Below the pieces are notes generated by a model. It had not been told where the DNA came from. It saw only the letters and a list, made by a program, of their open reading frames with translations, and ran no database searches. Below are positions 1-26,213 of a stretch of 26,213 bases of DNA, one piece after another; the stretch's first letter is position 1, and the number at the start of each line of letters is the position of its first letter. Where the stretch lies: positions 1 through 26,213 of the IMG/VR virus record IMGVR_UViG_3300032242_001749; one strand, 5' to 3'. The translations under genes and the position numbers were made by a program. This DNA comes from a virus.

Positions 1-999
1 ACCGCCAATAATAATCTTGGCTCCAGCAGCAAAGCCGTGATTAGCGGCAGTAATAGTTGCCGTAGTGCTTCCGTTTGAACGGCTAACAGCAGTAATGTTG
101 CGACTGTTATTGTCAACTACTGACGTAGTAAACTGTTGGGCTACTGCTACGCTTCCACGTTGCGGCAAAAGTACAGCGCCAAAAGTATCTTCCCAATAAT
201 CTCCAGTAAAATTGATAGTAGTGCTGAAAGGGAAGTTTTGGTAAGCACTTAACTCACCACCTTCAGTAATCCATGCCACAGGTTTATCACCATAAGTAGT
301 CATGTCAATGTGAGCACGCTGTGGGAAAGAACGGTCATCCACTTCTTGTGGCTTATAAACAGGTACATAACGACCCGTTGTTTTGGAGATACGTCGGAGA
401 CTGTACACATCAATGTTGTACAAACCAATACCCAAGTTGTAACACAAGTCACGGTATTGGGCTTGACGAGCCTGAACCATGTCCATCAACTGACGGTAAC
501 GTTCAGAACGTGGGATGCTTACGCCATCAGGCGCTGCAATGTCAATGTCAAACGAAGCATCAGTAGCAAGAGTGTAAAGCGCCAAAGTTACAGCGTAAAT
601 GGCTACAGGGTATTCTTCTACAGCAGACAAAGTGTCTATTGTGGTTTTTCTACCCACAGAATCTACGTGCCCAGAAGAGTGTTGCGCTACTGCATCAGTA
701 ACCAAAGAAGTTAACTCAACATCGCTAAAATAGCGGTAATAAGTTCCACTAACAGTAATAACTACTTGGTCAGCAGGAATAGCGACCAAAGTTAAATAGC
801 CAGTAGATTCCTCTACAAAAGAAGTAGAAGTAACATCAGTGCTTCCCACAAGTACATGAACACTTGCTGCATCAACAGGAGAATAATCAAGTTTAAAACG
901 ATTCGTCGTTCCATCAGAAATAATCTGGGATACAAAAGAGCGACCGTTGTCGCCAAGTTCTACACGAACACGACTGACGAGGCTTGAGGTAGTAGCCAT
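1..999 (-). CDS. Virion connector or tail protein, partial
   Basis: This leftward gene starts with an ATG at 999 and stays open to the left edge (333 codons seen, C-terminus missing). A strong GGAGGAAT ribosome site lies just upstream. I do not recognise the family. The N-terminal half is a soluble mixed fold without membrane segments. The last ~33 visible residues hold a beta-module (ITAV, TITAANHGF, GAKIIIGG) that also occurs five times in the large protein at 9122-10855. Its place after terminase, portal, scaffold and capsid suggests a head-tail connector, tail or fibre protein. It has its own terminator-like hairpin upstream (1064-1105), so it may be transcribed separately. The virion role is inferred from position; the reading frame itself is secure. 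Confidence 0.75.
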   Translation of the reverse strand, partial: MATTSSLVSRVRVELGDNGRSFVSQIISDGTTNRFKLDYSPVDAASVHVLVGSTDVTSTSFVEESTGYLTLVAIPADQVVITVSGTYYRYFSDVELTSLVTDAVAQHSSGHVDSVGRKTTIDTLSAVEEYPVAIYAVTLALYTLATDASFDIDIAAPDGVSIPRSERYRQLMDMVQARQAQYRDLCYNLGIGLYNIDVYSLRRISKTTGRYVPVYKPQEVDDRSFPQRAHIDMTTYGDKPVAWITEGGELSAYQNFPFSTTINFTGDYWEDTFGAVLLPQRGSVAVAQQFTTSVVDNNSRNITAVSRSNGSTTATITAANHGFAAGAKIIIGG

Positions 1000-6074: not shown

Positions 6075-6153
6075 GGGTACTCCTTAAGGGTTGGAATGGA
6101 AAACTCGAGTATTTCCAATACTAAGTTTCTCTATTTCTCAGAAAAATGTCTTG

Positions 6154-8226: not shown

Positions 8227-8231
8227 TAACC

Positions 8232-9116: not shown

Positions 9117-9121
9117 TTTTA

Positions 9122-10855: not shown

Positions 10856-10857
10856 GC

Positions 10858-11094
10858 TCAATCTTCTTTCTCACATAAGTGACTTGATGTTTCGTCCCCG
10901 TAAAGGATTTCGCCACAGTCCCGACAACGGAACATGCGGACATCGTCTAGTGCTTCGTGCAAAGAGTCCAAATTATTGTGCGTGTACGACCGAGGATTCT
11001 GTGCGAGAACCTCGGGCGGAAACGGTCCCAAGGGACGGGTGTAACCATGCGGGACAAGGTGTCCCTGCACAGCATCTTTCCGAATAACAGGCAT
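10858..11094 (-). CDS. Small zinc-ribbon-like protein
   Basis: A 78-residue protein. The C-terminal part has CRDCG followed about 13 residues later by HLC, a likely zinc site of the Cys-Cys-His-Cys kind. The N-terminal half is Pro-rich (GYTRPLGPFPPEVLAQNPRS). The ATG overlaps the last base of the upstream stop (TAATG). The stop lies 2 nt before the ATG of the large structural protein, so the three are probably cotranslated. No specific function is recognised. Confidence 0.72.
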   Translation of the reverse strand: MPVIRKDAVQGHLVPHGYTRPLGPFPPEVLAQNPRSYTHNNLDSLHEALDDVRMFRCRDCGEILYGDETSSHLCEKED

Positions 11095-11327
11095 TACTCT
11101 GTTACCGAATCAACTACCGTATCTGTAGTTGAATCTTCTGTTACCTTCTTCTTAGAAGACTTAACAACAGTTTCTTCGACTACAGGGGTCTGTAGCGGAA
11201 TTTGACCAGCGTCACGTCTCGAAAGCAAAAACTTTGGAAGGCAATCATCGCAATAATTTTGCTTGATTTCTTCATTGATTTGATAAGTGTACAATGCTTC
11301 GTTTGTACAGTTAGCGCAAACTACCAT
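11094..11327 (-). CDS. Small zinc-finger protein
   Basis: A 77-residue protein. Residues 1-30 contain two CxxC pairs, CANC and CDDC, about 22 residues apart, a typical treble-clef or zinc-ribbon arrangement. The rest is a Thr/Val/Ser/Lys/Glu-rich low-complexity tail. It precedes another small Cys/His protein. Function is not recognised. Small zinc proteins of this type are common between structural genes of actinophages; a folding or regulatory role is a guess. Confidence 0.72.
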   Translation of the reverse strand: MVVCANCTNEALYTYQINEEIKQNYCDDCLPKFLLSRRDAGQIPLQTPVVEETVVKSSKKKVTEDSTTDTVVDSVTE

Positions 11328-11336
11328 TTATTTTTC

Positions 11337-11996
11337 CTATTCGTTTAGCGAGGGGATGCTGGCAGACGGGTTTTTGCCACCACCAACTATTTTGCGGTGA
11401 ATGTCTTCGGCAGTCCTAGGGCTTTTTCCACGCTTAACTTTGTCACTAGCCGAATCAAACTTACGATTAGCGTTAGCAGTTGCACGCTTAATGCCATTCT
11501 CAGGCTTTTCACTTTCAATTGCCTTTGGTTCAATTTTAAAAACGTTTGGGTGGTCAGCCAAAGATTCGTGTTTTTCGCCGCCGCTAAGTTCGTGCTGTGG
11601 TCCACGACCAGTAACAGCGCTTTGTGCTTTACGCCCAGTCAGAGCGCCCTGGCGAGCGTTCTCATAGTGGTTACGAGTTTCTGTACGGAAACCTGCAGCA
11701 TCGTGCGAATCACCCTTTTCAGCGGGTTTGCTTCCACCTTTAGTAAACTTGGTAATGTGCTGACCACGTTCATTTACGTTGTGGCTAATTTCAGTTCCCT
11801 CAGCAGCCATGCTGTGAACCTGATTAAGGCTATTAGTAAAGTGTTCGTGAGCCTGTTGCTGGGCATGAGCATTAAACAGCCCCTGAATAGCAGTAGCGTG
11901 AACATGGTTAGCACCATCTGCGGCACGAGAAACCATGCCAGCGGCTTTACGACCTGCACCAGCAACAGCACCAGCCAAATAATTTCCAGAAGCCAT
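11337..11996 (-). CDS. Hypothetical Ala/Gly/His-rich protein
   Basis: A 219-residue protein with no recognised domain. The start (NYLAGAVAGAGRKAAGMVSR) is a small-residue-rich helix that could be amphipathic or membrane-associated. Residues 25-75 are rich in His, Gln and Ala (NAHAQQQAHEHFTNSLNQ). The rest is polar, basic and probably disordered, with repeated Lys/Arg clusters. The ATG at 11996 overlaps the stop of the upstream gene by one base. The composition fits an internal virion or DNA-associated protein better than an enzyme, but this is inference. Confidence 0.72.
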   Translation of the reverse strand: MASGNYLAGAVAGAGRKAAGMVSRAADGANHVHATAIQGLFNAHAQQQAHEHFTNSLNQVHSMAAEGTEISHNVNERGQHITKFTKGGSKPAEKGDSHDAAGFRTETRNHYENARQGALTGRKAQSAVTGRGPQHELSGGEKHESLADHPNVFKIEPKAIESEKPENGIKRATANANRKFDSASDKVKRGKSPRTAEDIHRKIVGGGKNPSASIPSLNE

Positions 11997-16202: not shown

Positions 16203-16544
16203 TTATAGCAAACCTTTTTCTTGAAGTCTAGTGAAAAACCCCTCCCCTTCATCAGACTCTACTTCAGAGCGAGACGGAGAAAACCCTTTTGATTTTGCAT
16301 AACGGATTAATCCTTCACCAATTCCTTTACCTGATTTATCTACTTCAATGTTGGCAACTTCATTACTAGGCATACCTTGATAGTCTGTAGTATCAGTATC
16401 CCCATGAAGTTCCAAAAATCCTACTTGGCTGCCTTCGTGGTGAGCAGTAAATAAATGATTGTTTTTTCCAGGTATGTAACTAGACGGTTGTTTACCTTTG
16501 TGCTCGTAAGTTACCCCGTGGAAGTCTGCATTATTTCTAGTCAT
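16203..16544 (-). CDS. Tagged GNAT-like acetyltransferase (island gene 10)
   Basis: A 113-residue protein starting with the island tag MTRNNADFHG. The rest looks like a compact GNAT N-acetyltransferase: VGFLELHGD strand, then NEVANIEVDKSGKGIGEGL, where GKGIGEG resembles the acetyl-CoA pyrophosphate loop (R/Q-x-x-G-x-G/A), then a helix RYAKSKG. It ends SDEGEGFFTRL, a motif shared with the GNAT-like proteins at 19357 and 18623. The substrate is unknown. The ATG overlaps the upstream stop (TAATG). It is the last gene of the island. The acetyltransferase call rests on pattern only. Confidence 0.72.
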   Translation of the reverse strand: MTRNNADFHGVTYEHKGKQPSSYIPGKNNHLFTAHHEGSQVGFLELHGDTDTTDYQGMPSNEVANIEVDKSGKGIGEGLIRYAKSKGFSPSRSEVESDEGEGFFTRLQEKGLL

Positions 16545-16798
16545 TACAGACCCCTAGACTTTCGTATAGTCTTTTCGCATTTCGCACATTCAACCCACTG
16601 CATAGGGTAGGAGTACTCGTCCTCATCGAGGCGAGCAACAGGGTTGTCGTGCTCTGGGTAAACAGTGGCACCACACAATGCTTTTTCGCCCTCACCATTT
16701 GGTGCAGAGTTAGTATGTGCGTGCCAGGTGCCTGATTGAGTAGCAGCGGCATAAAATTTGTTTACACCGCCATTAAACTCTGCATTATTTCTAGTCAT
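16544..16798 (-). CDS. Tagged Cys/His zinc-type protein (island gene 9)
   Basis: An 84-residue protein with tag MTRNNAEFNG. The body contains WHAHTNS, ALCGATVYP and WVECAKCEKTIR, a His-Cys...Cys-x-x-Cys layout that resembles short zinc domains of the DUF3039 type by pattern. No catalytic residues are apparent. The ATG overlaps the stop of the upstream island gene (TAATG), as does its own stop with the next ATG. It shows that the tag is also joined to a non-enzymatic-looking domain. Confidence 0.7.
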   Translation of the reverse strand: MTRNNAEFNGGVNKFYAAATQSGTWHAHTNSAPNGEGEKALCGATVYPEHDNPVARLDEDEYSYPMQWVECAKCEKTIRKSRGL

Positions 16799-17133
16799 TA
16801 GTAATCTTCATTCATGCGCCAATGCATTACAGGCACAGTAGTATTTGGCAAAACTTTAGATAAAGCACGAACACGGTGATTACCGTCAATAATAACGTTT
16901 TTATTGCGGTAATACCCAATAGTGATAGGCATAGGGTGACCTTCAAACTTTGGAATAGTTTTAGGGTCTAAACCTTTAGCGTATTTCTTTTCCAAACCTG
17001 ATTCGGCGTTTTCGTTATCAATTTCTTGAGGAGTACCTTCATGTTGTGCGGTTGCCAAAATTTCGGCAGGAGTCATCATGGTTATAGATTTGTGTTCTGG
17101 TACCCCACGGAAGTCAGCAGTATTTCTAGTCAT
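16798..17133 (-). CDS. Tagged ParB-like protein (island gene 8)
   Basis: A 111-residue protein. A longer frame opens at 17226, but the tag MTRNTADFRG at the ATG at 17133 fixes the start by comparison with its neighbours. Residues about 60-105 match the ParB N-terminal (ParB/sulfiredoxin) pattern: a PMPITIGYY strand, then VIIDGNHRVRALSK carrying the G-x-H-R signature, then a TVPVMHW strand. Domains of this fold bind or hydrolyse nucleotides and occur in phage polyvalent proteins. The start overlaps the upstream gene by 8 bp in the sequence ATGACTAG. Confidence 0.75.
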   Translation of the reverse strand: MTRNTADFRGVPEHKSITMMTPAEILATAQHEGTPQEIDNENAESGLEKKYAKGLDPKTIPKFEGHPMPITIGYYRNKNVIIDGNHRVRALSKVLPNTTVPVMHWRMNEDY

Positions 17134-17482
17134 GGTCATCGTCCCAAGAATACGAGCGACCATGCTTTTCGTTGAACTTATCAAACAAATGCTGTGCCGC
17201 AGGGTGAATAATTTCTCCCCAGTCAATGTTATGTCTGGGGAACTTTTGGTAAAAATGTGAGACTAGTTTTTCTGCATGTCCTTGACCCGAATGTGGGGAG
17301 CGTAAGTAGTCGATGTATGCTACTCCAACAGGGTCTGTATGGTACTCCAAAGAAGCGACATTTTTAGATTCAGAAGAATGGAGTCTCAAAATGCGAGCGT
17401 TTTCATAATCAGGGTTATCAAAGGACTCATCAGTAATGGTGTATCCCTGACCACCTTGGAAGTCTGCATTATTTCTAGCCAT
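17126..17482 (-). CDS. Tagged GNAT-like acetyltransferase (island gene 7)
   Basis: A 118-residue protein with tag MARNNADFQG; the ATG at 17482 is chosen over an ATG 18 bp upstream because of the tag and the TAATG overlap. The body has ARILRLHSSESKNVASLEYH, then VGVAYIDYLRSPHSGQGHA, where SGQGHA fits the acetyl-CoA loop, then helix EKLVSHFYQKF and HPAAQHLFDKFNEKHG, the usual last helix of a GNAT fold. It is a different subfamily from the other island GNATs because it lacks their late S/T-D/E-x-G motif. Substrate is unknown. Confidence 0.72.
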   Translation of the reverse strand: MARNNADFQGGQGYTITDESFDNPDYENARILRLHSSESKNVASLEYHTDPVGVAYIDYLRSPHSGQGHAEKLVSHFYQKFPRHNIDWGEIIHPAAQHLFDKFNEKHGRSYSWDDDHD

Positions 17483-17922
17483 TATGCAAACACCGTCCAT
17501 GGTGGGTCAATTTTACGGGTATGTACAATTTTAGGGAGTTGAGTTTCAGGGTCATACACAGTCTTATGAATGGCGTGAACGTGCACAATTCCTCCCCTTT
17601 TAACAGGGATTTCTTTTTCGTAATCTGCACCCAAATCATAATGCGCTAATTTTTCTGGGTCAGTTTCTCGTTGACCTTTAGGAAGAACCCCTTCTAAAAC
17701 ATGCCCAGTGTTTTCCTCATCCCCAAACATAATTTCATTATCATCTGGGTGCAATCCAACGCCAAACCTAGCCGCAATTTGTTTGCTAGTAGTCCAATGC
17801 ACTCCAACGGGCTTATCAAGGTTAGGTTCGCTTTCAAGGTCGTAGGCGTTAAGTCCTCGGTATACTTTTGTCCCAATGTGTTTAGATTGAACACCTGCCT
17901 GAAATTCATTGTTTCTACCCAC
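17482..17922 (-). CDS. Tagged ADP-ribosyltransferase-like protein (island gene 6)
   Basis: A 146-residue protein. The GTG at 17922 is chosen as start: it has GAGGAGG 6-7 nt upstream and begins a variant tag, MGRNNEFQAG. The body fits the Arg-Ser-Glu class of ADP-ribosyltransferases by pattern: KVYRGLN supplies the Arg, VHWTTSKQIAARFG resembles the Ser-Thr-Ser strand and helix, and DYEKEIPVKRGGIVHVHAI resembles the E-x-E region. Such enzymes transfer ADP-ribose from NAD to host proteins; T4 Alt is a packaged phage example. Activity is not proven. It overlaps the upstream fusion gene by 8 bp (GTGGGTAG). Confidence 0.7.
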   Translation of the reverse strand: MGRNNEFQAGVQSKHIGTKVYRGLNAYDLESEPNLDKPVGVHWTTSKQIAARFGVGLHPDDNEIMFGDEENTGHVLEGVLPKGQRETDPEKLAHYDLGADYEKEIPVKRGGIVHVHAIHKTVYDPETQLPKIVHTRKIDPPWTVFA

Positions 17923-18622
17923 GACATTCCTCCTCTGGATGCCAATGGACTTCAGTATGACCATTTGGGTTTTGATAAAAGTGACCCACACGTTTGACGT
18001 CGCTGACCCTAACGTTGCCAGGAATGTACTGGTCACCAGTCAACTTGTGCGTTCTAAGCACTTCTGCTTTTTTTTGTGCAACTTGATAGATGTCATCACC
18101 GTAAAGTTTTCTTGGAGGGTTACCTACGAAAACCCCACGCTCGTCACCTAGTCGTTTCTTAGCGGCATCCGTCATCTCGGTAAACTTTTCGTAACCAGAG
18201 TTACCTATTAGTCCTCTAGTTTCAATAGAGGAACGGTTCATACGAGGACTGACGTGGAATAGCCCAGTGCTGAAATCTTCATGTTGAGGGCTTAGTCCTG
18301 CTTGTTTGGCATACTCCCACATGCCTTCTTCAACGCCTTTGCGTTTGAACCCAGTCATACCTCCTTGTTCGAAAGTATCTACGTTTAGAGTTCTACCGCC
18401 ACCCTCATGCGGTGGGTTGAATGAAAACTTGCCGATACCGCCCACAACCCATGGGTGATGGGCAGTTACCATTGCAGAACCATCGTCAAACACTTTGTGG
18501 CTGTAATACACGTGTTTCATTAGTTCTTCTTTAGGTAACTTATTAGAGTAACCACCGTATTGCTGCGCCAACCGAGTAAGTTCGGCTTTATCATCTGGAG
18601 TAAGAGTTGGTCTATCTACCAT
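17915..18622 (-). CDS. Untagged GNAT-ART fusion (island gene 5)
   Basis: A 235-residue protein, the only island member without the tag. Residues about 40-120 look like a GNAT-type domain (GGIGKFSFNPP; GFKRKGVEEGMWEYAKQAG; SPQHEDFSTG). From LFHVSPRMNRSSIETRGL (about 121) onward it is closely similar to the whole protein at 19002. Shared parts are a SIE..GL start, GV-[F/Y]-VG, YGDDIY, SD-x-KRVGH, and EVH-x-HPEE-x-C near the end. That domain resembles an ADP-ribosyltransferase fold. AGGAG lies upstream of the ATG at 18622. It probably arose by fusion of two cassettes, with the late GNAT motif lost at the joint. Confidence 0.7.
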   Translation of the reverse strand: MVDRPTLTPDDKAELTRLAQQYGGYSNKLPKEELMKHVYYSHKVFDDGSAMVTAHHPWVVGGIGKFSFNPPHEGGGRTLNVDTFEQGGMTGFKRKGVEEGMWEYAKQAGLSPQHEDFSTGLFHVSPRMNRSSIETRGLIGNSGYEKFTEMTDAAKKRLGDERGVFVGNPPRKLYGDDIYQVAQKKAEVLRTHKLTGDQYIPGNVRVSDVKRVGHFYQNPNGHTEVHWHPEEECRG

Positions 18623-19009
18623 TTAGTATCTCCTCGTCCTAGTAATGACGACAGCATCCTCTTCTGGGTCATACTCGTTCTCAGGAAGATGCCCACCAAC
18701 ACTTCTAGCCCAAGCGTCGCCCGCTTCGGTGCGCTCTTCACTGTGTTCAGGTGACGGAATGCTCCCGCCGCTCGCCGCAGCCAACTTCTGTGCAAACCGA
18801 TACATGCCAGTTGCGACACCCTTGTTACGGTGCGCCATCTCGGTGTTGATGTGTCTGATGCGCCCAGACTCTTTATCCCAGTAAAGACTGCCTGCTTTTT
18901 GACCAGAAGAGTCTAGAGCAGTGACTTTGTGATACTCCCCACCAAGGAATGGTTCGCTAGGCGAATGCGTGAACGTATAACCGTGGAAATCTGCATTATT
19001 TCTAGTCAT
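18623..19009 (-). CDS. Tagged GNAT-like acetyltransferase (island gene 4)
   Basis: A 128-residue protein with tag MTRNNADFHG; the tag places the start at 19009, not at an upstream frame extension. The body shows KAGSLYWDKESGRIRHINTE, then AHRNKGVATGMYRFAQKLA, where RNKGVATG fits the acetyl-CoA loop Q/R-x-x-G-x-G/A, and finally PSPEHSEERTEAGDAWARSV. The last, HS-x-x-RT-x-AG-x-WA, recalls phage GNAT-like proteins I know from actinophages. The ATG overlaps the upstream stop in ATGACTAG. It lies next to the ART-like gene 19002. Confidence 0.75.
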   Translation of the reverse strand: MTRNNADFHGYTFTHSPSEPFLGGEYHKVTALDSSGQKAGSLYWDKESGRIRHINTEMAHRNKGVATGMYRFAQKLAAASGGSIPSPEHSEERTEAGDAWARSVGGHLPENEYDPEEDAVVITRTRRY

Positions 19010-19364
19010 AGATTGACGCTCCGTCACAATGTTCTTCAGGGTGGAGATGCACTTCGGAACGACCAAGACGGTCATGAAATACGTGACCTACACGTTTGAA
19101 GTCGCTGGTTTTTATGTCCCTTGGGATTATCTTTGCGCCATACTCCATGTCATCTTCTAGAACAGGTTCGTTTTTTGCTACTTTGATTTCATAAATGTCA
19201 TCACCATAGCCAAGACCCGTGCTAGGACCACTACCGACGTAAACGCCTTTAGGAGAACTATCCCACGGCTGATTGGCTTTTAAACCATTTTCTTCGATAC
19301 TGCGTCGGTTCTGTTTCCATGAAGCGTGGTAAAAAGTATTGAAATCTACATTATTTCTAGCCAT
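19002..19364 (-). CDS. Tagged ART-like protein (island gene 3)
   Basis: A 120-residue protein with tag MARNNVDFN. Directly after it FYHASWKQNRRSIEENGLKA has the Y-H-x-S...SI-x-x-x-GL start seen in many ADP-ribosyltransferase-like domains, followed by KGVYVGSGP and GYGDDIYEIKV. The end, DFKRVGHVF and SEVHLHPEEHCDG, matches the C-terminal half of the fusion protein at 17915, so the two are paralogues. AAAGGAAG lies upstream of the ATG at 19364. It overlaps the upstream gene by 8 bp (ATGGCTAG). Catalytic activity is inferred from fold pattern only. Confidence 0.7.
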   Translation of the reverse strand: MARNNVDFNTFYHASWKQNRRSIEENGLKANQPWDSSPKGVYVGSGPSTGLGYGDDIYEIKVAKNEPVLEDDMEYGAKIIPRDIKTSDFKRVGHVFHDRLGRSEVHLHPEEHCDGASIYD

Positions 19365-19737
19365 GGTAGTTCACTTCCTTTCCCGTATCGCCATTCATGG
19401 TGTAACCATACGATGGTACATTCAAAAGACCGTTACGCACAGCCTTTTTAGTGAACGCTTCACCTTCATCACTGACACTTCCTGGAACGTCAAGTATTTG
19501 CCCCCCATGCGCCCTTGCAGCCCCAAGTAGCGCAGACATTACGCCCATACGCTGATAGTTGGGGTGAACATCCATAGAAAGAACACCAGGGGCATCATCT
19601 GGGTCGTTGCTCCATTTAAGTTCCCCAATTGTTTTACCTGTGTCACGGTGTAGGGCTAAAGTTTTTAAGACGTTACGTTCTTTAGTTTTTTTGTGCACAA
19701 TGTCGTAACCGTGAAAGTCAGCGTTGTTCCTAGCCAT
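19357..19737 (-). CDS. Tagged GNAT acetyltransferase (island gene 2)
   Basis: A 126-residue protein with tag MARNNADFHG, encoded with different synonymous codons from its neighbours. The GNAT core is clear: TGKTIGELKWSND, then VLSMDVHPNYQRMGVMSALL, where V-x-P-x-x-Q-R-x-G-V is the classical motif A, then AARAHGG and SDEGEAFTKKAVRNG as the closing helix. It should transfer an acetyl group from acetyl-CoA to an unknown amine. It follows the island's first gene by 9 bp and overlaps the next by 8 bp. Confidence 0.82.
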   Translation of the reverse strand: MARNNADFHGYDIVHKKTKERNVLKTLALHRDTGKTIGELKWSNDPDDAPGVLSMDVHPNYQRMGVMSALLGAARAHGGQILDVPGSVSDEGEAFTKKAVRNGLLNVPSYGYTMNGDTGKEVNYHG

Positions 19738-19746
19738 TAGTAACCC

Positions 19747-20385
19747 TCATTTTTTACTAAACATTTCTGAAAACTGTTTGCTAGTGTGAATACCTACAGG
19801 TCGAATAGCATGAGGTTTGTTCAACACTGCTTGTAGGCTTTCTGGTTTTCCCCAGTTGTGTAGTTGGTGTTCATCGGTAATAAAAGAATCAAAACCTGCA
19901 AATGGTGCAGCATGTCCTAAATCCCTAGAATCGTTGTTTTCTACACCACGACGTAACTTATTCAACTTCTCTAGAAGGTAACCCCCGTGGACGTCTGGAA
20001 TCTTTCCTGCTACTACACGGTTTTTGATGTCTTCTTCACGTCCAGCCAAAGCCTTCATGATTATGTCTTGGTGGTTAGGGGTTACTACTCCATGGATTCT
20101 ATCGGCATACACTAGAGGGTTTCTGCCAGTGAACTTAGACCGAAGCACAGAGCCGCCGCTTTTAGATTCTTCGTCACTTTGGTTTAGGTAGTAAGCAACG
20201 TCATCTGGGTGGGAAGCCATGTTAAACCCAGGACCGTATGTGCCACCATCGTTTTGACCAGGTTCGCTAAGTTCAGGCTGACGGATACCCTGATGGACGA
20301 TGTCGCTTAGTTGATGTGTGCGACCAGCGTGATACCAATCAATGGATTTTGCATGAGCCAAAAAATCATCAATGTTTCTACCCAT
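19747..20385 (-). CDS. ART-like protein with degenerate tag (island gene 1)
   Basis: A 212-residue protein. It starts MGRNIDDFLA, a diverged form of the island tag, then IDWYHAGRTHQLSDIVHQGI. This Y-H-x-G start, the GTYGPGFNMASHPDDVAYYL segment and the later GFDSFITDEHQLHNW match ART-type domains in phage polyvalent proteins (first strand His or Arg, then the A-x-x-Y helix, then a D-x-x-x-x-x-D strand). It is the longest single-domain island member and the first transcribed. No ribosome site is obvious before the ATG at 20385, which lies 5 bp after the preceding stop, so coupling is likely. Confidence 0.7.
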   Translation of the reverse strand: MGRNIDDFLAHAKSIDWYHAGRTHQLSDIVHQGIRQPELSEPGQNDGGTYGPGFNMASHPDDVAYYLNQSDEESKSGGSVLRSKFTGRNPLVYADRIHGVVTPNHQDIIMKALAGREEDIKNRVVAGKIPDVHGGYLLEKLNKLRRGVENNDSRDLGHAAPFAGFDSFITDEHQLHNWGKPESLQAVLNKPHAIRPVGIHTSKQFSEMFSKK

Positions 20386-21026: not shown

Positions 21027-21514
21027 TAGTCTTGGAACCTTTCTGATGCTGAACGGGTGATACCGTTTTCGTCAAATGCTTGTGGAAAGAACTGGCGTCC
21101 TAGGTAAGTGTTGGCTCGTTTTGCTGCTGCACGTGAGTTGCGGTCACGGGTTTGTGCGCCTCGGGCTGCTGCTGTTTCACGGTCTGGTTTGGCTACTACG
21201 GCTGGTCCTGCGGTGCGTGATGGGATTGGGGCTGCACCTGTTTGTGTTGGGATTGCTGCGTCTGCTTGGTGGTGGGTGTCTGTGGCTAGTGCATCGGTGT
21301 GCATTTGAGACTTTTCTAGCGGACCTAGGTCGAAGTCTAGTGACCCGTTGTAGTGGGTTGGTGTTGTTCCTTTGAAGAACACTGCTTGACCACATTTGGC
21401 GCACTTTGGTACGGCAGCCCATGCTGCTTGACGCATCGCTGGGTCTGGGTGCTTGTTGCGTCCCGTGAACAAACGTTCGTGTGTTCTGAGAGCAAAATTC
21501 GGGTCGGTTGCCAT
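21026..21514 (-). CDS. Hypothetical protein with one CxxC knuckle
   Basis: A 162-residue protein, the first gene of the leftward block. Residues 30-45 contain VPKCAKCGQAVFF, a single zinc-knuckle-like pair. The central part is Ala/Thr/Pro-rich and flexible (DAAIPTQTGAAPIPSR). The end is basic and helical (AKRANTYLGRQFFPQAF). No family is recognised. GGTCACC precedes the ATG at 21514. It faces the divergent control region at 21515-21642. Confidence 0.7.
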   Translation of the reverse strand: MATDPNFALRTHERLFTGRNKHPDPAMRQAAWAAVPKCAKCGQAVFFKGTTPTHYNGSLDFDLGPLEKSQMHTDALATDTHHQADAAIPTQTGAAPIPSRTAGPAVVAKPDRETAAARGAQTRDRNSRAAAKRANTYLGRQFFPQAFDENGITRSASERFQD

Positions 21515-21537
21515 CGTGGTGACCTTTCAGTATGATG

Positions 21538-21543
21538 ATTCTA
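21538..21543 (-). promoter_or_regulatory. Possible -10 of the leftward promoter
   Basis: TAGAAT on the minus strand, 24 bp upstream of the ATG at 21514, fits the actinobacterial -10 pattern TANNNT. No good -35 is found at 17 bp (TTTTAA instead). It is the best candidate for a leftward promoter in the divergent region. Confidence 0.3.
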
Positions 21544-21581
21544 TTGTGAAGGGTTTTGGGTTAAAAATCTTTATAAACGAT

Positions 21582-21600
21582 TGTTATCAATCTGTTATCA
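21582..21600 (+). repeat. Tandem TGTTATCA boxes in divergent region
   Basis: TGTTATCA occurs at 21582-21589 and 21593-21600, an 11-bp repeat period, about one helical turn. Both lie between the divergent start regions and just upstream of the rightward -35. They could be a regulator binding site. Confidence 0.45.
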
Positions 21601-21606
21601 AAAACA

Positions 21607-21636
21607 TTGCGTTCCTTGAACCGCATAGGGTAGATT
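21607..21636 (+). promoter_or_regulatory. Rightward promoter, probably leaderless
   Basis: TTGCGT (21607-21612), an 18-bp spacer and TAGATT (21631-21636) form a good -35/-10 pair. The ATG at 21643 lies only 6 bp after the -10 and lacks a ribosome site, so the transcript would begin at or next to the start codon. Leaderless genes with TANNNT at this distance are common in actinobacteria. Confidence 0.55.
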
Positions 21637-21642
21637 TAAGTT

Positions 21643-21831
21643 ATGGATAAAAACCTTAACTTATGCAAACCGCACAACTGGTTGTTCGACGAGTTCGAAG
21701 AGCCATGCCCGCTCTGTGAAGCCATTAAGACTGAACAAGAACGCATCCTTGCCCTACTCAACGCTTGGGTATACGACGACAACGGCGACTGGGACAAAAT
21801 GATGCTCGCCATCAAGGGAGAGAACAAGTGA
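21643..21831 (+). CDS. Small zinc protein with KTEQxRI helix
   Basis: A 62-residue protein, the first gene of the rightward arm. CKPHNWLF and CPLCEAIKTEQERILALLNA give a Cys/His-type knuckle followed by an amphipathic helix. The next gene has a related KTEQ-D-RIIKLLE helix, so the two are tandem relatives. Short proteins of this kind are frequent in actinophage early regions; their function is unknown to me. Its stop overlaps the next GTG start (GTGA). Confidence 0.75.
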   Translation: MDKNLNLCKPHNWLFDEFEEPCPLCEAIKTEQERILALLNAWVYDDNGDWDKMMLAIKGENK

Positions 21832-22106
21832 GCATACTAAATGAGCCAAGAAAACCTGATTGCGATGTTTGCGATTGGGCGACGTCCTCTTGGTGGGCAC
21901 ATGGATTGAACTTGTGCCAAGCGGATTTTGAACTTATTCGTAAAGTGGTCAAGACAGAGCAAGACCGCATTATCAAACTGCTAGAGGACGAAATCCAACG
22001 CCTAGTAGACATGGCTGGTCAGCGTGAAGGCGGACCTGCATGGCGTAGTGCTGGCATTGAGAACTGTGAACACCTTATCGCTCTTATCAAAGGAAAGAAC
22101 AACTAA
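21828..22106 (+). CDS. Small Cys-containing protein, relative of previous gene
   Basis: A 92-residue protein. The GTG at 21828 is chosen because it overlaps the previous stop (GTGA) and has AAGGGAGAG upstream; the open frame extends further but lies inside the previous gene. CDVCDW and NLCQADF give a zinc-like pattern. KTEQDRIIKLLEDEIQRLVD forms a helix related to the previous protein, and a NCEHLIALIKGKNN end matches its MLAIKGENK end. Tandem duplication is likely. Function unknown. Confidence 0.75.
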   Translation: MSILNEPRKPDCDVCDWATSSWWAHGLNLCQADFELIRKVVKTEQDRIIKLLEDEIQRLVDMAGQREGGPAWRSAGIENCEHLIALIKGKNN

Positions 22107-22366
22107 TGGCTACATGGACAGACGACTACGGGCACCAACTAGAATTCGTTCACGAAGTAAACACCTGCCACGGACCACGATGCCCAATCCACAACCCCAG
22201 CGACCATGCCCTCCGAGACGCCAAACAACGCTGGAACATGGAAAAACGCATCATGGAACGGGTCTGCAAACACGAAATTGCCCACCCAGACCCAGACGAC
22301 TACAAAGCCGCCGCAGTCACCCGACTACACGGATGCGACGGCTGTTGCACACCAGTCGTGGATTAG
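22106..22366 (+). CDS. Actinophage-type Cys/His small protein
   Basis: An 86-residue protein. CHGPRCPIHNPSDH, then RWNMEKRIMERVCKHEIA, HPDPDD and HGCDGCC form a Cys/His pattern I know from many small actinophage proteins (C...C-x-I-H-x-P-S-x-H, HPDPDD, HGCDGCC). Zinc binding is likely; biochemical function is unknown. The ATG overlaps the previous stop (TAATG), so the first three rightward genes form one translational unit. This is one of the better clues to an actinobacterial host. Confidence 0.82.
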   Translation: MATWTDDYGHQLEFVHEVNTCHGPRCPIHNPSDHALRDAKQRWNMEKRIMERVCKHEIAHPDPDDYKAAAVTRLHGCDGCCTPVVD

Positions 22367-22507
22367 AACCATACGTCGCAGTTCGTTAAACGCCGTATAA
22401 CGACGTCACACACCCGACAAAAAAGGCTACTGCCTCAACCCCAAAATCACACCCATGGGGATTACCTGTCCGTATCTGACCCACGCTTGCGGTAAAGGGG
22501 TCGATTT

Positions 22508-22522
22508 TTAGGGAAACGGATT
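22508..22522 (+). repeat. Arm element copy 0 (partial)
   Basis: Only the 5' part of the element, TTAGGGAAACGGATT, is present; the sequence then diverges and has no CCAATCC arm. It is the only copy that is not followed closely by a gene. Confidence 0.7.
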
Positions 22523-22609
22523 GGCTATTTGGCTACTGCGCCACGGGGCTACACGGCACTAGGCGTATGGACAGACTAGGGACAGACCCCCCGTGTTGTT
22601 ATCAACTAT

Positions 22610-22644
22610 TTAGGGAAACGGATGCTCACCAATCCACCCCACCC
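22610..22644 (+). repeat. Arm element copy 1
   Basis: Full 35-bp copy starting TTAGGGAAACGGAT and ending CCAATCCACCCCACCC; centre GCTCA. The next gene starts 38 bp later (22683). Confidence 0.85.
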
Positions 22645-22682
22645 TATGGTGTCGGAGTCAATCGAACGAAAGGACACTCACG

Positions 22683-22922
22683 ATGAACCTTGATAACGCA
22701 CTACTCAACGACCTAATCGTTGCCGAATCTGAATACCTTGGTCTTCCAATCCCGAAGGGATTGAACTTGAACACCATCCGTGCCAGAATCAACCGCCAAT
22801 CCCGTCTCACCCCAACCGAATCCTTCGGATACTTGACGGGGTCTGAGCAGGAGCAGGAACGCTTGGATGCCCTATCCCTTGCCATCGCTTCTGTTATCCG
22901 TTCTCTCTTCACCAACAACTAA
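22683..22922 (+). CDS. Hypothetical small protein
   Basis: A 79-residue protein without recognised motifs. It looks helical: ALLNDLIVAESEYLG, then LNLNTIRARINRQSR and QERLDALSLAIASVIRSLF. The ATG at 22683 follows a full repeat element and an AAAGGA ribosome site. It is followed by a hairpin and the next element. Early or middle phage gene is inferred from its place in the arm. Confidence 0.72.
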   Translation: MNLDNALLNDLIVAESEYLGLPIPKGLNLNTIRARINRQSRLTPTESFGYLTGSEQEQERLDALSLAIASVIRSLFTNN

Positions 22923-22938
22923 CCATCGGTCTTGGGAG

Positions 22939-22957
22939 CAGGGGGCTTTGCCCCCTG
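22939..22957 (+). terminator. GC-rich hairpin after gene 22683
   Basis: CAGGGGGC and GCCCCCTG with a TTT loop (8-bp stem). It lies 16 bp after the stop. No T run follows, but the same hairpin plus TGACCCCCACCGA recurs at 24011, in both cases directly before a repeat element, so the unit appears duplicated. Confidence 0.45.
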
Positions 22958-22970
22958 TGACCCCCACCGA

Positions 22971-23005
22971 TTAGGGAAACGGATTGTTACCAATCCAACC
23001 CACCC
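22971..23005 (+). repeat. Arm element copy 2
   Basis: Full 35-bp copy with centre TGTTA, allowing a GGATTG/CAATCC stem. It follows a hairpin and does not contain an upstream stop. The next gene (GTG at 23042) starts 36 bp later. Confidence 0.88.
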
Positions 23006-23041
23006 TTAGACGAACCACCGAACACCACTCAAAGGAGCATC

Positions 23042-23233
23042 GTGAAAGATGACATTTTACTTGACTTTACTATCCGCATCATCGTAGATGATGTCTCGCC
23101 AGACAACAAGCCACGCTCAGAGTTTAGAGCGTCTGTCTATGACGAAGAAGACCTGCTTTCTGACGGCTGGGGAGACACCATTGACTCAGCCATAAGCAAC
23201 GCTATGGACAAATGGACAACCACCGAAGATTAG
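23042..23233 (+). CDS. Small acidic protein
   Basis: A 63-residue acidic protein with a GTG start at 23042 and AAAGGAG upstream. A beta-strand-like start (DILLDFTIRIIVDDV) is followed by FRASVYDEEDL and a helix DTIDSAISNAMDKW. This resembles a small alpha/beta domain, but no family is recognised. Its TAG stop is the TAG of the next repeat element, so gene and element are fused at that point. Confidence 0.72.
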   Translation: MKDDILLDFTIRIIVDDVSPDNKPRSEFRASVYDEEDLLSDGWGDTIDSAISNAMDKWTTTED

Positions 23234-23264
23234 GGAAACGGAATCTCACCAATCCAACCCACCC
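23230..23264 (+). repeat. Arm element copy 3
   Basis: Full copy with centre ATCTCA; GGAATC cannot pair fully with CAATCC, so the hairpin is not strictly conserved. Its TAG at 23231 stops the upstream gene. The next gene starts 28 bp later (23293). Confidence 0.88.
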
Positions 23265-23292
23265 AAAGATGAACCACCAACGAAGGAGCAAC

Positions 23293-23562
23293 ATGACCAC
23301 CACAATAGGAATAGGGCAACACCTAGCCGATAGCCTTTGGCTATTGAACCGCAAGAACCGCCGAGAGAGCATCACCAAGTTGCTCGTTCAGCAGGAGCGC
23401 ATCAAGGTCAAGATTGACCGACTCAACCGCTACTCAATCCTAGGGCAGGATTGCGTGGCAAGCGACAGCCAGAAGTTCGTCTTCGAGTGCTGGTGCGCCG
23501 AGTGTAAAGAGATTACCAACACCATCATCAAGTACGACCGACTACCTGATTGGTTGGCATAG
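23293..23562 (+). CDS. Hypothetical protein with CWCAEC motif
   Basis: An 89-residue protein; the ATG at 23293 is chosen because GAAGGAG lies 7 nt upstream, whereas the open frame extends into the repeat and the previous gene. The centre is helical and basic (LLNRKNRRESITKLL, QERIKVKIDRLNR). ECWCAECKEITNT is a cysteine cluster that may bind metal. No family is recognised. Confidence 0.75.
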   Translation: MTTTIGIGQHLADSLWLLNRKNRRESITKLLVQQERIKVKIDRLNRYSILGQDCVASDSQKFVFECWCAECKEITNTIIKYDRLPDWLA

Positions 23563-23570
23563 CCAACCGA

Positions 23571-23605
23571 TTAGGGAAACGGATTCCCACCAATCCAACC
23601 CACCC
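23571..23605 (+). repeat. Arm element copy 4
   Basis: Full copy with centre TCCCA, 8 bp after the preceding stop. A 5-bp GGATT/AATCC stem is possible. The next gene starts 33 bp later (23639). Confidence 0.88.
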
Positions 23606-23638
23606 AAAGATGAACCACCCAACTGAAAGAGAGATACC

Positions 23639-24022
23639 ATGTCACTAGATTGGAACGCAACCAAGGTTACAAACCTTGACGAACTCAACTCAACCGAAGA
23701 AGGCAAGTCAAAGACTATCAACCTTTGCTGGTTGCTCATGGCAACAGGCATCGGAAGAGTCACCGAAGCCAACTACATCGAAGTCTTCAACCGCATCAAC
23801 ATCTACGAACGAGTCAATGGAGCACTACTCTCATCCGTAAATGAAGATGACGAACTCGTCAAGCACTTTTACACCCTTGGAGACATCCGAGACCGCATCG
23901 GATACAGCACCAATGTCTCAACCGAGACATCGGCTCAATGGCTCAAGCGATTCTTTACCACCAAGGTAAAGGAGACCACTTGGAACGAGACCCAACGCTT
24001 GAAGGAGTTGCAGGGGGCGTAA
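23639..24022 (+). CDS. Hypothetical protein
   Basis: A 127-residue soluble protein. The start SLDWNATKVTNLDELN leads to a helical body (SKTINLCWLLMATGIGRV, EVFNRINIYERVNGALL) and a basic C-terminal helix (WLKRFFTTKVKETTWNE). No family or catalytic motif is recognised. The ATG has AAAGAGAG about 6 nt upstream. The last codons and the stop lie in a GC-rich hairpin (24011-24030). Confidence 0.75.
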   Translation: MSLDWNATKVTNLDELNSTEEGKSKTINLCWLLMATGIGRVTEANYIEVFNRINIYERVNGALLSSVNEDDELVKHFYTLGDIRDRIGYSTNVSTETSAQWLKRFFTTKVKETTWNETQRLKELQGA

Positions 24023-24030
24023 GCCCCCTG
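24011..24030 (+). terminator. GC-rich hairpin at end of gene 23639
   Basis: CAGGGGGC and GCCCCCTG with a GTAA loop that contains the TAA stop. It is followed by TGACCCCCACCGA and the next repeat element, as at 22939-22970. The two copies look like duplicates of one gene-end unit. Confidence 0.45.
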
Positions 24031-24043
24031 TGACCCCCACCGA

Positions 24044-24078
24044 TTAGGGAAACGGATTGCTACCAATCCAACCCACCC
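24044..24078 (+). repeat. Arm element copy 5
   Basis: Full copy with centre TGCTA and a perfect 6-bp GGATTG/CAATCC stem around CTAC. The next gene starts 37 bp later (24116). Confidence 0.9.
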
Positions 24079-24115
24079 AACAATGCAACACCAACCACCA
24101 AGAAGGAGCAACACC

Positions 24116-24454
24116 ATGGCAACAAAGAACACCACCATCAACCCATCGGTCAAGTCATACACCAACGACCTAATCATCGAAGGTCTCCGCAAGTTGGCAC
24201 TCCAGCGAGACACTCTCCGTAAGTACGCTTCAGATGAAGAGTCTGACTCGTTCGATGAAGAGCGTGCCGAGCAGTACGCCGAAGACATCACCGCCATCCG
24301 TTCGGTGCTCGTCACCTTTGGAGACACCAAGCCACTCGTCTTGAAGTCAGAGCGCAAGGCTAAGGCTAAGAAGGGCAAGGCATCTATCAAGGTGACCAAG
24401 GCTAAGGCAACCAAGGTTGCCAAGCCAACCGCCAAGGCATCGGTCAAGGCGTAG
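24116..24454 (+). CDS. Protein with histone-like Lys/Ala tail
   Basis: A 112-residue protein. AAGGAGCAACACC precedes the ATG at 24116. Residues 1-75 are a helical, acidic domain (GLRKLALQRDTLRKYASDEE, then EQYAEDITAIRSVLV). The last ~32 residues are a Lys/Ala/Thr/Val tail (KAKAKKGKASIKVTKAKATK and on) very like the C-terminal tails of histone H1 and actinobacterial HupB. Such tails bind DNA non-specifically. Function is inferred: DNA compaction or competition with host nucleoid proteins. The head domain is not recognised. Confidence 0.78.
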   Translation: MATKNTTINPSVKSYTNDLIIEGLRKLALQRDTLRKYASDEESDSFDEERAEQYAEDITAIRSVLVTFGDTKPLVLKSERKAKAKKGKASIKVTKAKATKVAKPTAKASVKA

Positions 24455-24478
24455 CCACCACCACCTGAGTAGGTGGCT
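24453..24478 (+). other. Hairpin overlapping the stop of gene 24116
   Basis: AGCCACC and GGTGGCT form a 7-bp stem around a 12-nt loop, starting inside the TAG stop. It occupies the place where other genes of the arm have the 35-bp element. Confidence 0.38.
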
Positions 24479-24547
24479 AAACTGCTCACTCCCAAGCCAG
24501 AAGGCGTAAGGGTTATGCGACCTGAGCAAGTCAGCCAAACTGCTCAC
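24479..24547 (+). repeat. Direct repeat AAACTGCTCAC at an element-free junction
   Basis: GC-[T/C]-AAACTGCTCAC occurs twice, with the shared 11-mers at 24479-24489 and 24537-24547 (58 bp apart). This is the only junction between 22.6 and 25.3 kb where the 35-bp element is missing and genes do not overlap. Confidence 0.45.
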
Positions 24548-24573
24548 CACATCCACACCACGAAGGAGACACC

Positions 24574-24843
24574 ATGAACACGGACGAAGTCAAACTTGAT
24601 TGGTCTGAAGAGAACATCACCATCGAATACCAAGATGGTAAGTACTACCTGAACCTGTACGCCAGAGACTCGGAGACGGGTGGCTGGGATGTCGTTCGTA
24701 CCGATGAGCACCGCTCCATGTTCGATGCCCTGAAGGGCGCAGTTCAATGGGTCGAAGTGGAGCGAGAGCAGGAGCGCAAGTTTGATGCCATGTACGAAGA
24801 GCACCAGCGTTGGCTTGAACTGCAAGACCCCACCGAAGATTAG
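24574..24843 (+). CDS. Small acidic protein
   Basis: An 89-residue protein. The first half looks like a beta-sheet (ENITIEYQDGKYYLNLYARD, GGWDVVRTDEH), followed by a long charged helix (DALKGAVQWVEVEREQERKF). AAGGAG precedes the ATG. The TAG stop is the TAG of the next element. No family is recognised. The strand-then-helix build resembles small phage inhibitors, but no target can be named. Confidence 0.75.
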   Translation: MNTDEVKLDWSEENITIEYQDGKYYLNLYARDSETGGWDVVRTDEHRSMFDALKGAVQWVEVEREQERKFDAMYEEHQRWLELQDPTED

Positions 24844-24874
24844 GGAAACGGATTCCCACCAATCCACCCCACCC
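24840..24874 (+). repeat. Arm element copy 6
   Basis: Full copy with centre TCCCA and CCACCCCACCC end. Its TAG at 24841 stops the upstream gene. The next gene starts 34 bp later (24909). Confidence 0.88.
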
Positions 24875-24908
24875 TTAGACGAACCACCAACCACGAAGGA
24901 GCAACGCC

Positions 24909-25280
24909 ATGGCTGTAACTGCACAGCAAGCCATCAAGAAGATGGCATCATCCATCAAGTTCCAAACTCATGGTCACCTAAGCGGTGGCTACGATTGGCA
25001 CGATAACTACACCATCTATTCATACGACACCGCCATCGCTAGAGTATCTAAGCGAGGTCAAGTCTGGGTCACTACTCGTTGGTACTCAAGGACTACCAAC
25101 AAGCACATCCGTTATGTTCTTCAAGCGTTCGACAGGGGTGTTGTTGTTTATGCATCGGACTACGAAGTAGCCAAGGGCACTACGAAGTGGCGTGACCTAG
25201 ACGCTACACTACCAGCACCAGCACCAACTCCTGCACCAGCACCAGCACCGCTAACCCCGAAGGAGATAGACATTGTCTAA
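24909..25280 (+). CDS. DUF8033-like protein with Pro/Ala tail
   Basis: A 123-residue protein. DNYTIYSYDTAIARVSKRG, then VWVTTRWYSRTTNKHI, follows the Y-S/D-T-x-I-A...W-Y-S-x-T-T-x-K-H pattern of DUF8033-like domains, which occur in many viruses and have no known activity. After residue 95 an Ala/Pro linker (PAPAPTPAPAPAP) leads to a short end. GAAGGAGCAACGCC precedes the ATG. The gene at 26038 may carry a related start. Assignment is by eye. Confidence 0.75.
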   Translation: MAVTAQQAIKKMASSIKFQTHGHLSGGYDWHDNYTIYSYDTAIARVSKRGQVWVTTRWYSRTTNKHIRYVLQAFDRGVVVYASDYEVAKGTTKWRDLDATLPAPAPTPAPAPAPLTPKEIDIV

Positions 25281-25446
25281 ACTTTACACGATGACCCGTT
25301 ACTACTACACACTCGATTGGCTCGACCAGAATCCTGCGGTCGTGTTCTCGTTCGACTCACACTACCGAAGCCAAGCCGATGCTATGGCTCGTGCGTTCTT
25401 CGGTGAAGGTGAGACCCCCATCTTCCACAGCCAAGAAGAACTTTAG
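25273..25446 (+). CDS. Small protein with TTG start
   Basis: A 57-residue protein. AAGGAG at 25260-25265 lies 7 nt before a TTG at 25273, overlapping the end of the previous gene by 8 bp; an ATG at 25291 lacks a ribosome site. Residues include MTRYYYTLDWLDQNPAVVF and YRSQADAMARAFFGEGE, an aromatic strand then helix. No family is recognised. The TAG stop lies in the next element. Confidence 0.68.
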   Translation: MSKLYTMTRYYYTLDWLDQNPAVVFSFDSHYRSQADAMARAFFGEGETPIFHSQEEL

Positions 25447-25477
25447 GGAAACGGATTGCTACCAATCCAACCCACCC
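25443..25477 (+). repeat. Arm element copy 7
   Basis: Full copy with centre TGCTA. Its TAG at 25444 stops the upstream gene. An ATG (25482) in the conserved flank is in frame with the next gene, but AAAGGAG favours the ATG at 25509. Confidence 0.9.
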
Positions 25478-25508
25478 TTAGATGAACCGCCCAACCAAAG
25501 GAGACCTA

Positions 25509-25802
25509 ATGGATTACATCCACGAAGCAGAGACCCTGCGAAACAACAACCCCGAGTGGAGCACCGACAACAACAACGCTTTGCAGAAGATTATGGTCGA
25601 AGTTGTCCGTGTCGGTAAAGGAGTATGGCTCGTCCGTCCCGATAAGGACGAGCGATTCTATGGCTACACCCCGAGCGTAGTAGATAACCTAATGTTCTTC
25701 TCGGCTGGTGGCTACGCTGGTGGCTTGTTCATCGAAGGAGACTTAGCCCGATTCATCTGCGAACTCACCAGCGAAGGCAAGCGACTACCTGCAACCGCCT
25801 AG
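25509..25802 (+). CDS. Hypothetical protein
   Basis: A 97-residue protein. The ATG at 25509 has AAAGGAG 6 nt upstream; the in-frame ATG at 25482 belongs to the flank of the repeat. A helical start (DYIHEAETLRNNNPEW) is followed by VEVVRVGKGVWLVRPDKDE and a hydrophobic stretch (VVDNLMFFSAGGYAGGLFIE) that is probably core rather than membrane. No family is recognised. Confidence 0.75.
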   Translation: MDYIHEAETLRNNNPEWSTDNNNALQKIMVEVVRVGKGVWLVRPDKDERFYGYTPSVVDNLMFFSAGGYAGGLFIEGDLARFICELTSEGKRLPATA

Positions 25803-25854
25803 CACACACACCCCCCCAAGAGTTTGTGTTGGGGCATCACACGAAGGGAACAAC

Positions 25855-25977
25855 ATGACCACCAAGTTTGGATGGTGTCTTACGGGACACCACGGACAAT
25901 GCGCCACCACACTCACATCGAACGACCGCAAGTACGATTGCGGATGTTCATGCCATGCACACGACCCAGCAGATTAG
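25855..25977 (+). CDS. Tiny Cys/His zinc protein
   Basis: A 40-residue protein. GWCLTGHHGQCATTL and YDCGCSCHAHDPAD place four Cys and several His in a C...H-H...C...C-x-C-x-C-H pattern, probably one zinc site. Similar very small C-x-C-x-CH proteins are common in actinophages. GAAGGGAACAAC precedes the ATG. The TAG stop is the TAG of the next element. Confidence 0.72.
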   Translation: MTTKFGWCLTGHHGQCATTLTSNDRKYDCGCSCHAHDPAD

Positions 25978-26008
25978 GGAAACGGATTGCTACCAATCCA
26001 ACCCACCC
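25974..26008 (+). repeat. Arm element copy 8
   Basis: Full copy with centre TGCTA. Its TAG at 25975 stops the 40-residue gene. The next gene starts 29 bp later (26038). Confidence 0.9.
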
Positions 26009-26037
26009 ACTAGTGAGACACCAACGAAGGAGATACG

Positions 26038-26213
26038 ATGGCTCGAATACCTACTCGTCAAGTAGTTCGCTTGAACGAGATACCGAACATGATTCAAGCG
26101 AGACTTGGGTTCTCGTCATGCAACAATACACTTGTCGGATTCACGGACAAGGATGGCGATTACATCGTCAAGTCTTACGGACAAGTCTTAGCGGTGTTCT
26201 CAACCGAAGGTGA
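26038..26213 (+). CDS. Hypothetical protein, cut by right edge
   Basis: An ATG at 26038 with GAAGGAGATACG upstream opens a frame that continues past the window end (58 codons seen). LVGFTDKDGDYIVKSYGQVL followed by AVF recalls, weakly, the strand pair of the DUF8033-like protein at 24909. No family is certain. It follows the last visible copy of the 35-bp element. Confidence 0.7.
   Translation, partial: MARIPTRQVVRLNEIPNMIQARLGFSSCNNTLVGFTDKDGDYIVKSYGQVLAVFSTEG

Follow-up and report, generated by a model that had tools for sequence, protein, structure and literature searches.

The stretch of DNA analyzed here, called the window, is the complete IMG/VR virus record IMGVR_UViG_3300032242_001749 (26,213 bp). 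Toward its right end lies an arm of rightward genes in which a 35-bp element recurs between the genes. Positions 1..123 of the window match exactly the end (61794-61916) of a second record, IMGVR_UViG_3300032242_001185 (61,916 bp, referred to below as the contig). Assemblers leave exact overlaps of this kind between adjoining contigs, and we therefore took the window and the contig as one virus; to judge from the shared 123 bp, the two records are neighboring pieces of a single virus of at least 88,006 bp. The rightward arm begins near 21.6 kb of the window, runs off the window end and stops at about 6.9 kb of the contig, interrupted by a gap between the window end and the contig start. Nearly all genes outside the arm, in window and contig alike, are leftward. 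The major capsid protein is 62% identical to that of Streptomyces phage LuckySocke and the terminase 52% identical to that of Streptomyces phage BRock; many of the relatives closer than these two phages are metagenomic records. The virus is an uncultivated freshwater relative of BRock.

The element opens with a 13-mer, TTAGGGAAACGGA (block A), of which the window holds nine exact occurrences, all on the + strand, starting at 22508, 22610, 22971, 23230, 23571, 24044, 24840, 25443 and 25974. An earlier, sequence-only reading of this DNA had claimed nine copies sharing the 13-mer, and every one is exact, on the + strand and where that reading placed it. Its extended consensus also holds: all eight full copies in the window read TTAGGGAAACGGA-N5-ACCAATCCA[A/C]CCCACCC. 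Each of these lies shortly before a gene. Full copy 1 (22610..22644) is followed by an ATG at 22683, 38 nt downstream; copy 2 (22971..23005) by a GTG at 23042, 36 nt downstream; copy 3 (23230..23264) by an ATG at 23293, 28 nt downstream; copy 4 (23571..23605) by an ATG at 23639, 33 nt downstream; copy 5 (24044..24078) by an ATG at 24116, 37 nt downstream; copy 6 (24840..24874) by an ATG at 24909, 34 nt downstream; copy 7 (25443..25477) by an ATG at 25509, 31 nt downstream; and copy 8 (25974..26008) by an ATG at 26038, 29 nt downstream. The remaining occurrence (22508..22523, + strand) is a partial copy that keeps only the first 16 bases, that is, block A (TTAGGGAAACGGATTG). It gives a weak sequence-model match (15.4 bits, columns 1-16) and has no gene start within 100 bp. 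The sequence-only reading had proposed searching for the 13-mer in the rest of the genome and in relatives; this search yielded one more (tenth) site, on the contig of the same virus, and none in relatives. The tenth site is a full copy (copy 9, contig 2517-2551) with one base different, and a start lies 26 nt downstream of it.

These repeats did not arise by chance. By plain arithmetic, a given 13-mer is expected about 0.003 times in 88 kb on both strands, and this one is seen 10 times. Allowing up to one mismatch, the window still holds 9 forward and 0 reverse matches, and a reversed-pattern control gives 0; the next-best matches to the 13-mer in the window have 3 mismatches. No half-site resembling block A or block B (the right-hand part of the consensus, ACCAATCCA[A/C]CCCACCC) occurs elsewhere in the window.

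The position of the element is set by the gene that follows it. Over the nine full copies, the start codon follows the end of the element at 26-38 nt, and a separate Shine-Dalgarno sequence (SD) always lies between the two (9/9). The sequence-only reading had put the copies 28-40 bp before gene starts; the linkage to starts stands, and the range measured in the window is 28-38 nt. Only 3.4% of arm positions obey the 26-38 nt rule, so that nine of nine copies doing so corresponds to P about 6e-14 (within the arm), and the random placement relative to starts that would have spoken against a function is not seen. All nine full copies point forward in the rightward arm and, as had been claimed, the copies are confined to the intergenic regions there. 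Relative to the upstream stop there is no such constancy, the distance being anywhere from -4 to 243 nt. Four full copies share their first 4 nt with the upstream gene, whose stop codon is the TAG of TTAGGG: at 23230 (TAG at 23231-23233, gene 23042-23233), 24840 (gene 24574-24843), 25443 (gene 25273-25446) and 25974 (gene 25855-25977). Since the upstream stop falls inside the element in these four copies, at least the 5' end of the element is within a translated frame. Four genes ending at the element's own stop, together with the varied gaps elsewhere, show that it is the downstream start to which the element is linked. The nine genes behind full copies are small and have at most weak matches to families of unknown function. 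No copy accompanies three of the arm genes (24574, 25273 and 25855). The gap before the first of these (24455-24573) contains an imperfect duplication, ACCTGAGTAGGTGGCTAAACTGCTCAC / ACCTGAGCAAGTCAGCCAAACTGCTCAC, and a CCACCTGAGTAGGTGG hairpin.

Conservation of the element is strict. Over the nine full copies, 28 of 35 columns are invariant (1-13, 19-27 and 29-34), and the variable ones are 14-18, 28 and 35. The flank is partly conserved, as the sequence-only reading had noted: beyond the 35-mer, column 42 (the seventh base after it) is G in 9/9 copies, and columns 43-49 lean toward AACCACC. After block A, C makes up 41% of the bases and G 10%, compared with 29% C and 23% G in the arm. Copies 2 and 5 share more than the others do, a common 56-nt block at 98% identity that includes an upstream GC hairpin; this near-exact block is a sign of recent duplication. 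The hairpins lie on the + strand just upstream of the copies, GGGGGC-TTT-GCCCCC at 22941..22955 before copy 2 (best local fold -24.7 kcal/mol, against an arm mean of -8.8 kcal/mol) and GGGGGC-GTAA-GCCCCC at 24013..24028 before copy 5 (-27.2 kcal/mol). Directly before copy 4, a third + strand hairpin, GGTTGGC-ATA-GCCAACC (23552..23568), spans the upstream stop; its -12.3 kcal/mol is inside the control range (5th percentile -14.8). A further short repeat, TGTTATCA, occurs forward at 21582 and 21593, in the divergent gap at the arm head, and at 22597, just before full copy 1.

The element has been found in this virus only. The rest of the 88 kb, seven sister phages (77-95 kb) and the 100 kb of BRock that were read contain no further copy, and searches of 1.2 Mb of relatives with sequence and structure models did not add a full copy either. 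Scanning IMG/VR for the element returned only the virus itself (one contig, 001185), and a comparison of the arm with isolate phages gave no match; we therefore rejected an element widely shared among phages. A host-derived element was rejected on 0 matches to AGGGAAACGGA-N5-ACCAATCC in GTDB genomes. Equivalent repeats of another sequence in the sister phages were sought by comparing upstream regions with one another, and no comparable multi-copy element appeared in the seven relatives or BRock. In one sister phage (G008), a short motif, CCRACTACAAAAAA / CCCGCCTACAAAAAA, lies upstream of several genes, for example at 83241- and 86777-. In another (G003), the junction behind the homologue of gene 25855 is compact, lacks the element and leads to a different gene. 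Relatives of arm genes that could serve for a comparison of leaders were not found for two genes, and the gene after copy 9 is found only in its own virus. Because there is no match in GTDB, in the rest of IMG/VR, in isolate phages or in the sisters, and because the G003 junction lacks the element, we conclude that the element belongs to this lineage's own accessory arm.

Several familiar kinds of repeat can be set aside. The copies are spaced at gene-sized intervals (259-796 nt) filled with coding sequence, unlike a CRISPR repeat. Integron attC sites are recognized by their GTTRRRY partner site, and the conserved part of the element contains none. The element hairpin has no U-run behind it and is not an intrinsic terminator. 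An Rfam scan of 21500-26213 gave no match up to E = 5. An ATG at +4 after the element was considered as an alternative start; it is not in frame in every copy and is ACG in others.

Because of its placement and conservation, we consider it very probable that the element is functional, a start-linked regulatory element. The first question is whether it is a promoter. A SigA (sigma-70 type) promoter was rejected, there being no conserved -10/-35 pair at a spacing of 16-19 nt. When all column pairs were scanned, the best -10 column (36-41) had A2 and T6 in only 4/9 copies, and TATAAT-like sequences were not enriched after the element relative to shuffled leaders (P 0.61). The same scan applied to a positive control, the Cluster EC motif of the Microbacterium phage Quhwah, found A2 and T6 in 11/11 copies and TAGACA/TAGACC 17-18 nt upstream in 9/11. 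Since the scan recovers the promoter in Quhwah, the method can detect one, and it shows none in the window element. A promoter scan of the arm likewise gave no SigA-like match at the elements. The sole + strand match in the arm, TTGCCA-17-TATGAT (10/12), is at the arm head (21508..21536); the number of SigA-like sites is not above that in shuffles (3 vs 3.8).

With canonical promoters rejected and a likely promoter at the arm head, we rank first the possibility that the element acts in the 5' leader and at the level of RNA, where a specific factor reads it. This is a tentative preference that falls somewhat short of an even chance. We postulate that this early arm would be transcribed from a promoter at its head and that each gene's mRNA would carry the element in its 5' leader. 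The signal is bipartite, with block A (TTAGGGAAACGGA), five variable bases and block B (ACCAATCCA[A/C]CCCACCC), and with weaker conservation continuing to about column 49. A phage- or host-encoded factor could read the exposed conserved bases of the hairpin (GGG/CCC, the internal loop AAAC/A[A/C] and GGA/UCC) together with the C-rich, G-poor tail, and its binding would set translation, stability or continued transcription, gene by gene.

Some properties of the predicted RNA are consistent with action in the leader. Minimum-energy predictions give all nine full copies a common core, GGG-AAAC-GGA...UCC-A[A/C]-CCC. The GGATTG/CAATCC stem is complete in four copies (22971, 24044, 25443 and 25974), has 5 bp in two and 4 bp in one, and is down to 3 bp at 23230, which agrees with the sequence-only reading that the stem exists in some copies and not at 23230. 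That reading had also held that primary sequence matters more than the hairpin. Conservation is indeed mainly of primary sequence, but no copy (0/9), not even the one at 23230, has lost the outer GGG/CCC and GGA/UCC pairs. Copies with the 6-bp stem fold better than shuffles (z -2.1 to -2.4). All 7 variable columns lie outside the 6 core pairs (hypergeometric P about 0.04, a weak value since five of the columns are contiguous), and their position is weakly compatible with an RNA element. Also in favor, 28/35 columns are fixed although the genes that follow lack a confident family match.

Other results weigh against an RNA leader. The copies at 23230 and at contig 2517 show no advantage in folding over shuffles (z +0.5 and +0.3), and with the whole leader folded no copy goes beyond z -1.2. 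The core pairs are invariant in 9/9 copies, with no compensatory change; because they never vary, covariation cannot be scored. Unpaired blocks are conserved as strongly as paired ones. The predicted accessibility of the SD and start codon does not differ from that in element-less arm genes (P 0.44), and a hairpin that protects the SD was rejected on this result. In addition, the placement and orientation are what a regulator that binds DNA would also produce.

That last point leads to the main rival reading, possible but, in our estimate, fairly unlikely, in which the element would be a DNA-level site where a phage or host DNA-binding protein represses or halts transcription at each small gene, by operator or stoperator logic. 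Like sites in Cluster A phages, the copies are asymmetric, in a single orientation, intergenic and near starts, and two rigid blocks around a variable middle are also found in the Cluster A stoperators. The virus encodes candidate regulators, namely an XRE-type helix-turn-helix protein in the same arm (contig 6105-6344), a WhiB protein and a MarR-like protein. However, no homologue of the Cluster A repressor and no integrase turned up, neither having been specifically searched for, and the related phage BRock is reported to be virulent (PMC7453282). In addition, these copies are all start-linked, and known stoperators are not restricted to the neighborhood of starts.

Each copy might instead be the recognition region of a promoter for its own gene, with a sigma factor of a non-standard type, a host polymerase that depends on an activator or a phage polymerase as the reader. 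A distance of 26-38 nt to the start with an SD between would fit a short-leader promoter, the corresponding EC motif resolves into TAGACA-17/18-TAGACT in 9/11 copies, the ESAS of Adephagia contain SigA-like promoters (PMC11373665), and GC hairpins directly precede copies 2 and 5. We nevertheless consider promoters at each gene unlikely. There is no conserved -10 (A2/T6 in 4/9 copies, vs 11/11 in Quhwah), likeness to TATAAT stays at the level of shuffles, and the conserved right half is C-rich. Models of sigma-70 regions 2 and 4 gave no match in the 88 kb, while their positive controls were detected. A search with the single-subunit RNA polymerase model PF00940 was also empty (0/9 records), although no control genome matched either and part of this genome is missing.

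Finally, the element and leader might be an exchangeable cassette boundary, conserved by recent copying and not by regulation, as the 56 bp shared at 98% by copies 2 and 5 (upstream hairpin included), the mostly orphan genes behind the elements, the element-less compact junction and different next gene in G003 and the absence of the element from every sister genome might suggest; but outside the copy 2/5 pair the flanks have diverged while 28 columns and the start distance are kept, so that copying alone is insufficient, and with only one orientation and no recombinase site or inverted-repeat ends we find this very unlikely.

The element can be compared with start-linked repeats of other phages. 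The sequence-only reading had pointed to the start-associated sequences (SAS) of Cluster K and the stoperators of Cluster A mycobacteriophages as functional parallels with different sequences. Both are fair, but the list was incomplete, since the SAS overlaps the ribosome-binding site (RBS) 3-8 bp from the start (PMC3203893) and the nearest geometry is that of the EC and EI motifs. Further start-linked repeats include the 17-bp palindromes of Cluster O (PMC4351075) and the EC, EF, EG and EI motifs (PMC7302621). The Cluster EC motif of Microbacterium phages precedes both the RBS and the start, the latter by 21-30 bp, and has been called unexplained; it is 18 bp in 12 copies in Quhwah, and the EI motif of MementoMori is 30 bp in 5 copies (PMC7302621). 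Like the window element, the EC and EI motifs are asymmetric, in one orientation, in short intergenic gaps, upstream of the RBS and before small non-structural genes, and the distance to the start is similar by the same measure (19-30 nt for EC in Quhwah, 26-38 nt for the window element). In contrast, the EC consensus TAGaCTATaGGTgTaAgC with a -35/-10 spacing of 17-18 is found in Quhwah and not in the window element, which has neither the SigA-like promoter of EC nor the TAGAGT/TACAGT -10 of EI. Phages with EC or EI motifs encode a sigma factor, whereas none was found in this virus, and the window element is longer and more conserved than their motifs.

The Cluster K SAS and ESAS (PMC3203893, PMC11373665) are also start-linked repeats; they occupy the non-structural half of the genome, nearly always share one orientation and may contain upstream stops. 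However, the SAS is a 13-bp GGGATAGGAGCCC that contains the SD, 3-8 nt from the start, whereas the window element has another sequence, stands 26-38 nt away and leaves the SD separate. The ESAS is a 17-bp imperfect inverted repeat pair adjoining the SAS, with a SigA-like promoter; the window element has only an internal inverted repeat of 3-6 bp and no SAS. Cluster A stoperators (L5, TipsytheTRex) are likewise asymmetric, intergenic and oriented with transcription, with rigid ends and a variable middle, and one repressor monomer with two DNA-binding domains reads the asymmetric site and allows the variable middle (PMC9283540). They are 13 bp long and occur at 20 or more sites genome-wide, with operator copies at promoters and a known repressor, whereas the window element is at least 35 bp long and only start-linked, with no repressor identified and no repressor homology search made. 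BRock itself (Borockvirus, KX925554) resembles this virus in having a short arm in which small rightward genes of unknown function are separated by wide gaps, all else being leftward, and a SigA-like TTGACA-17-TACAAT at the head of that arm. Most of the wide arm gaps of BRock (6132-11809) hold varied strong hairpins, several of them TTGAC-looped, and no common repeated element. On these comparisons, the element is of a known broad kind, the start-associated repeats of actinobacteriophages, with a new sequence; each named family is defined by a sequence or position that the element lacks, and the element belongs to none of them.

The comparison also bears on the EC motif. In Quhwah (MH271321), 9 of 11 copies (e.g., 2777, 5317 and 45587) have TAGACA/TAGACC 17-18 nt before TAGACT, and the EI motif of MementoMori has a TAGAGT or TACAGT -10 in 4/4 copies. 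The published EC motif of unexplained role thus reads as a putative SigA-like promoter, TAGACA-17/18-TAGACT.

Two other features of the genome were seen. In the rightward arm of the contig (412-2460) is a gene for a 682-aa protein with about 31% identity to CobT-like cobalamin biosynthesis proteins annotated in Gordonia phages; in IMG/VR it has no relative beyond its own virus. On the minus strand of the window (16203-20385), at least eight leftward genes that otherwise differ in content encode a common N-terminal peptide close to M[TA]RNNADF[HQN]G (e.g., 16203-16544, 16544-16798, 17126-17500, 18623-19075, 19002-19364 and 19357-19737). This shared N-terminus looks like a tag for targeting or packaging that is carried by varied cargo.

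Several groups of actinobacteriophages are reported to have start-linked repeats, for which no function has been agreed on. The set described here is among the longest and most strictly conserved of its kind and, unlike the EC motif, no SigA promoter emerges from it; the EC motif as a promoter is directly testable in isolates. We speculate, as a quite unlikely possibility, that the element is a lineage-specific RNA leader tag, with one phage-encoded factor reading the same leader of about 45 nt on nine unrelated early mRNAs and switching all of them together, and with newly acquired small genes joining by gaining the tag. If true, this would amount to a phage regulon that works post-transcriptionally and does not have a promoter for every gene. 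More generally, if the element does act in the 5' leader, then a changing set of accessory early genes would be brought under one control by the tagging of their starts.

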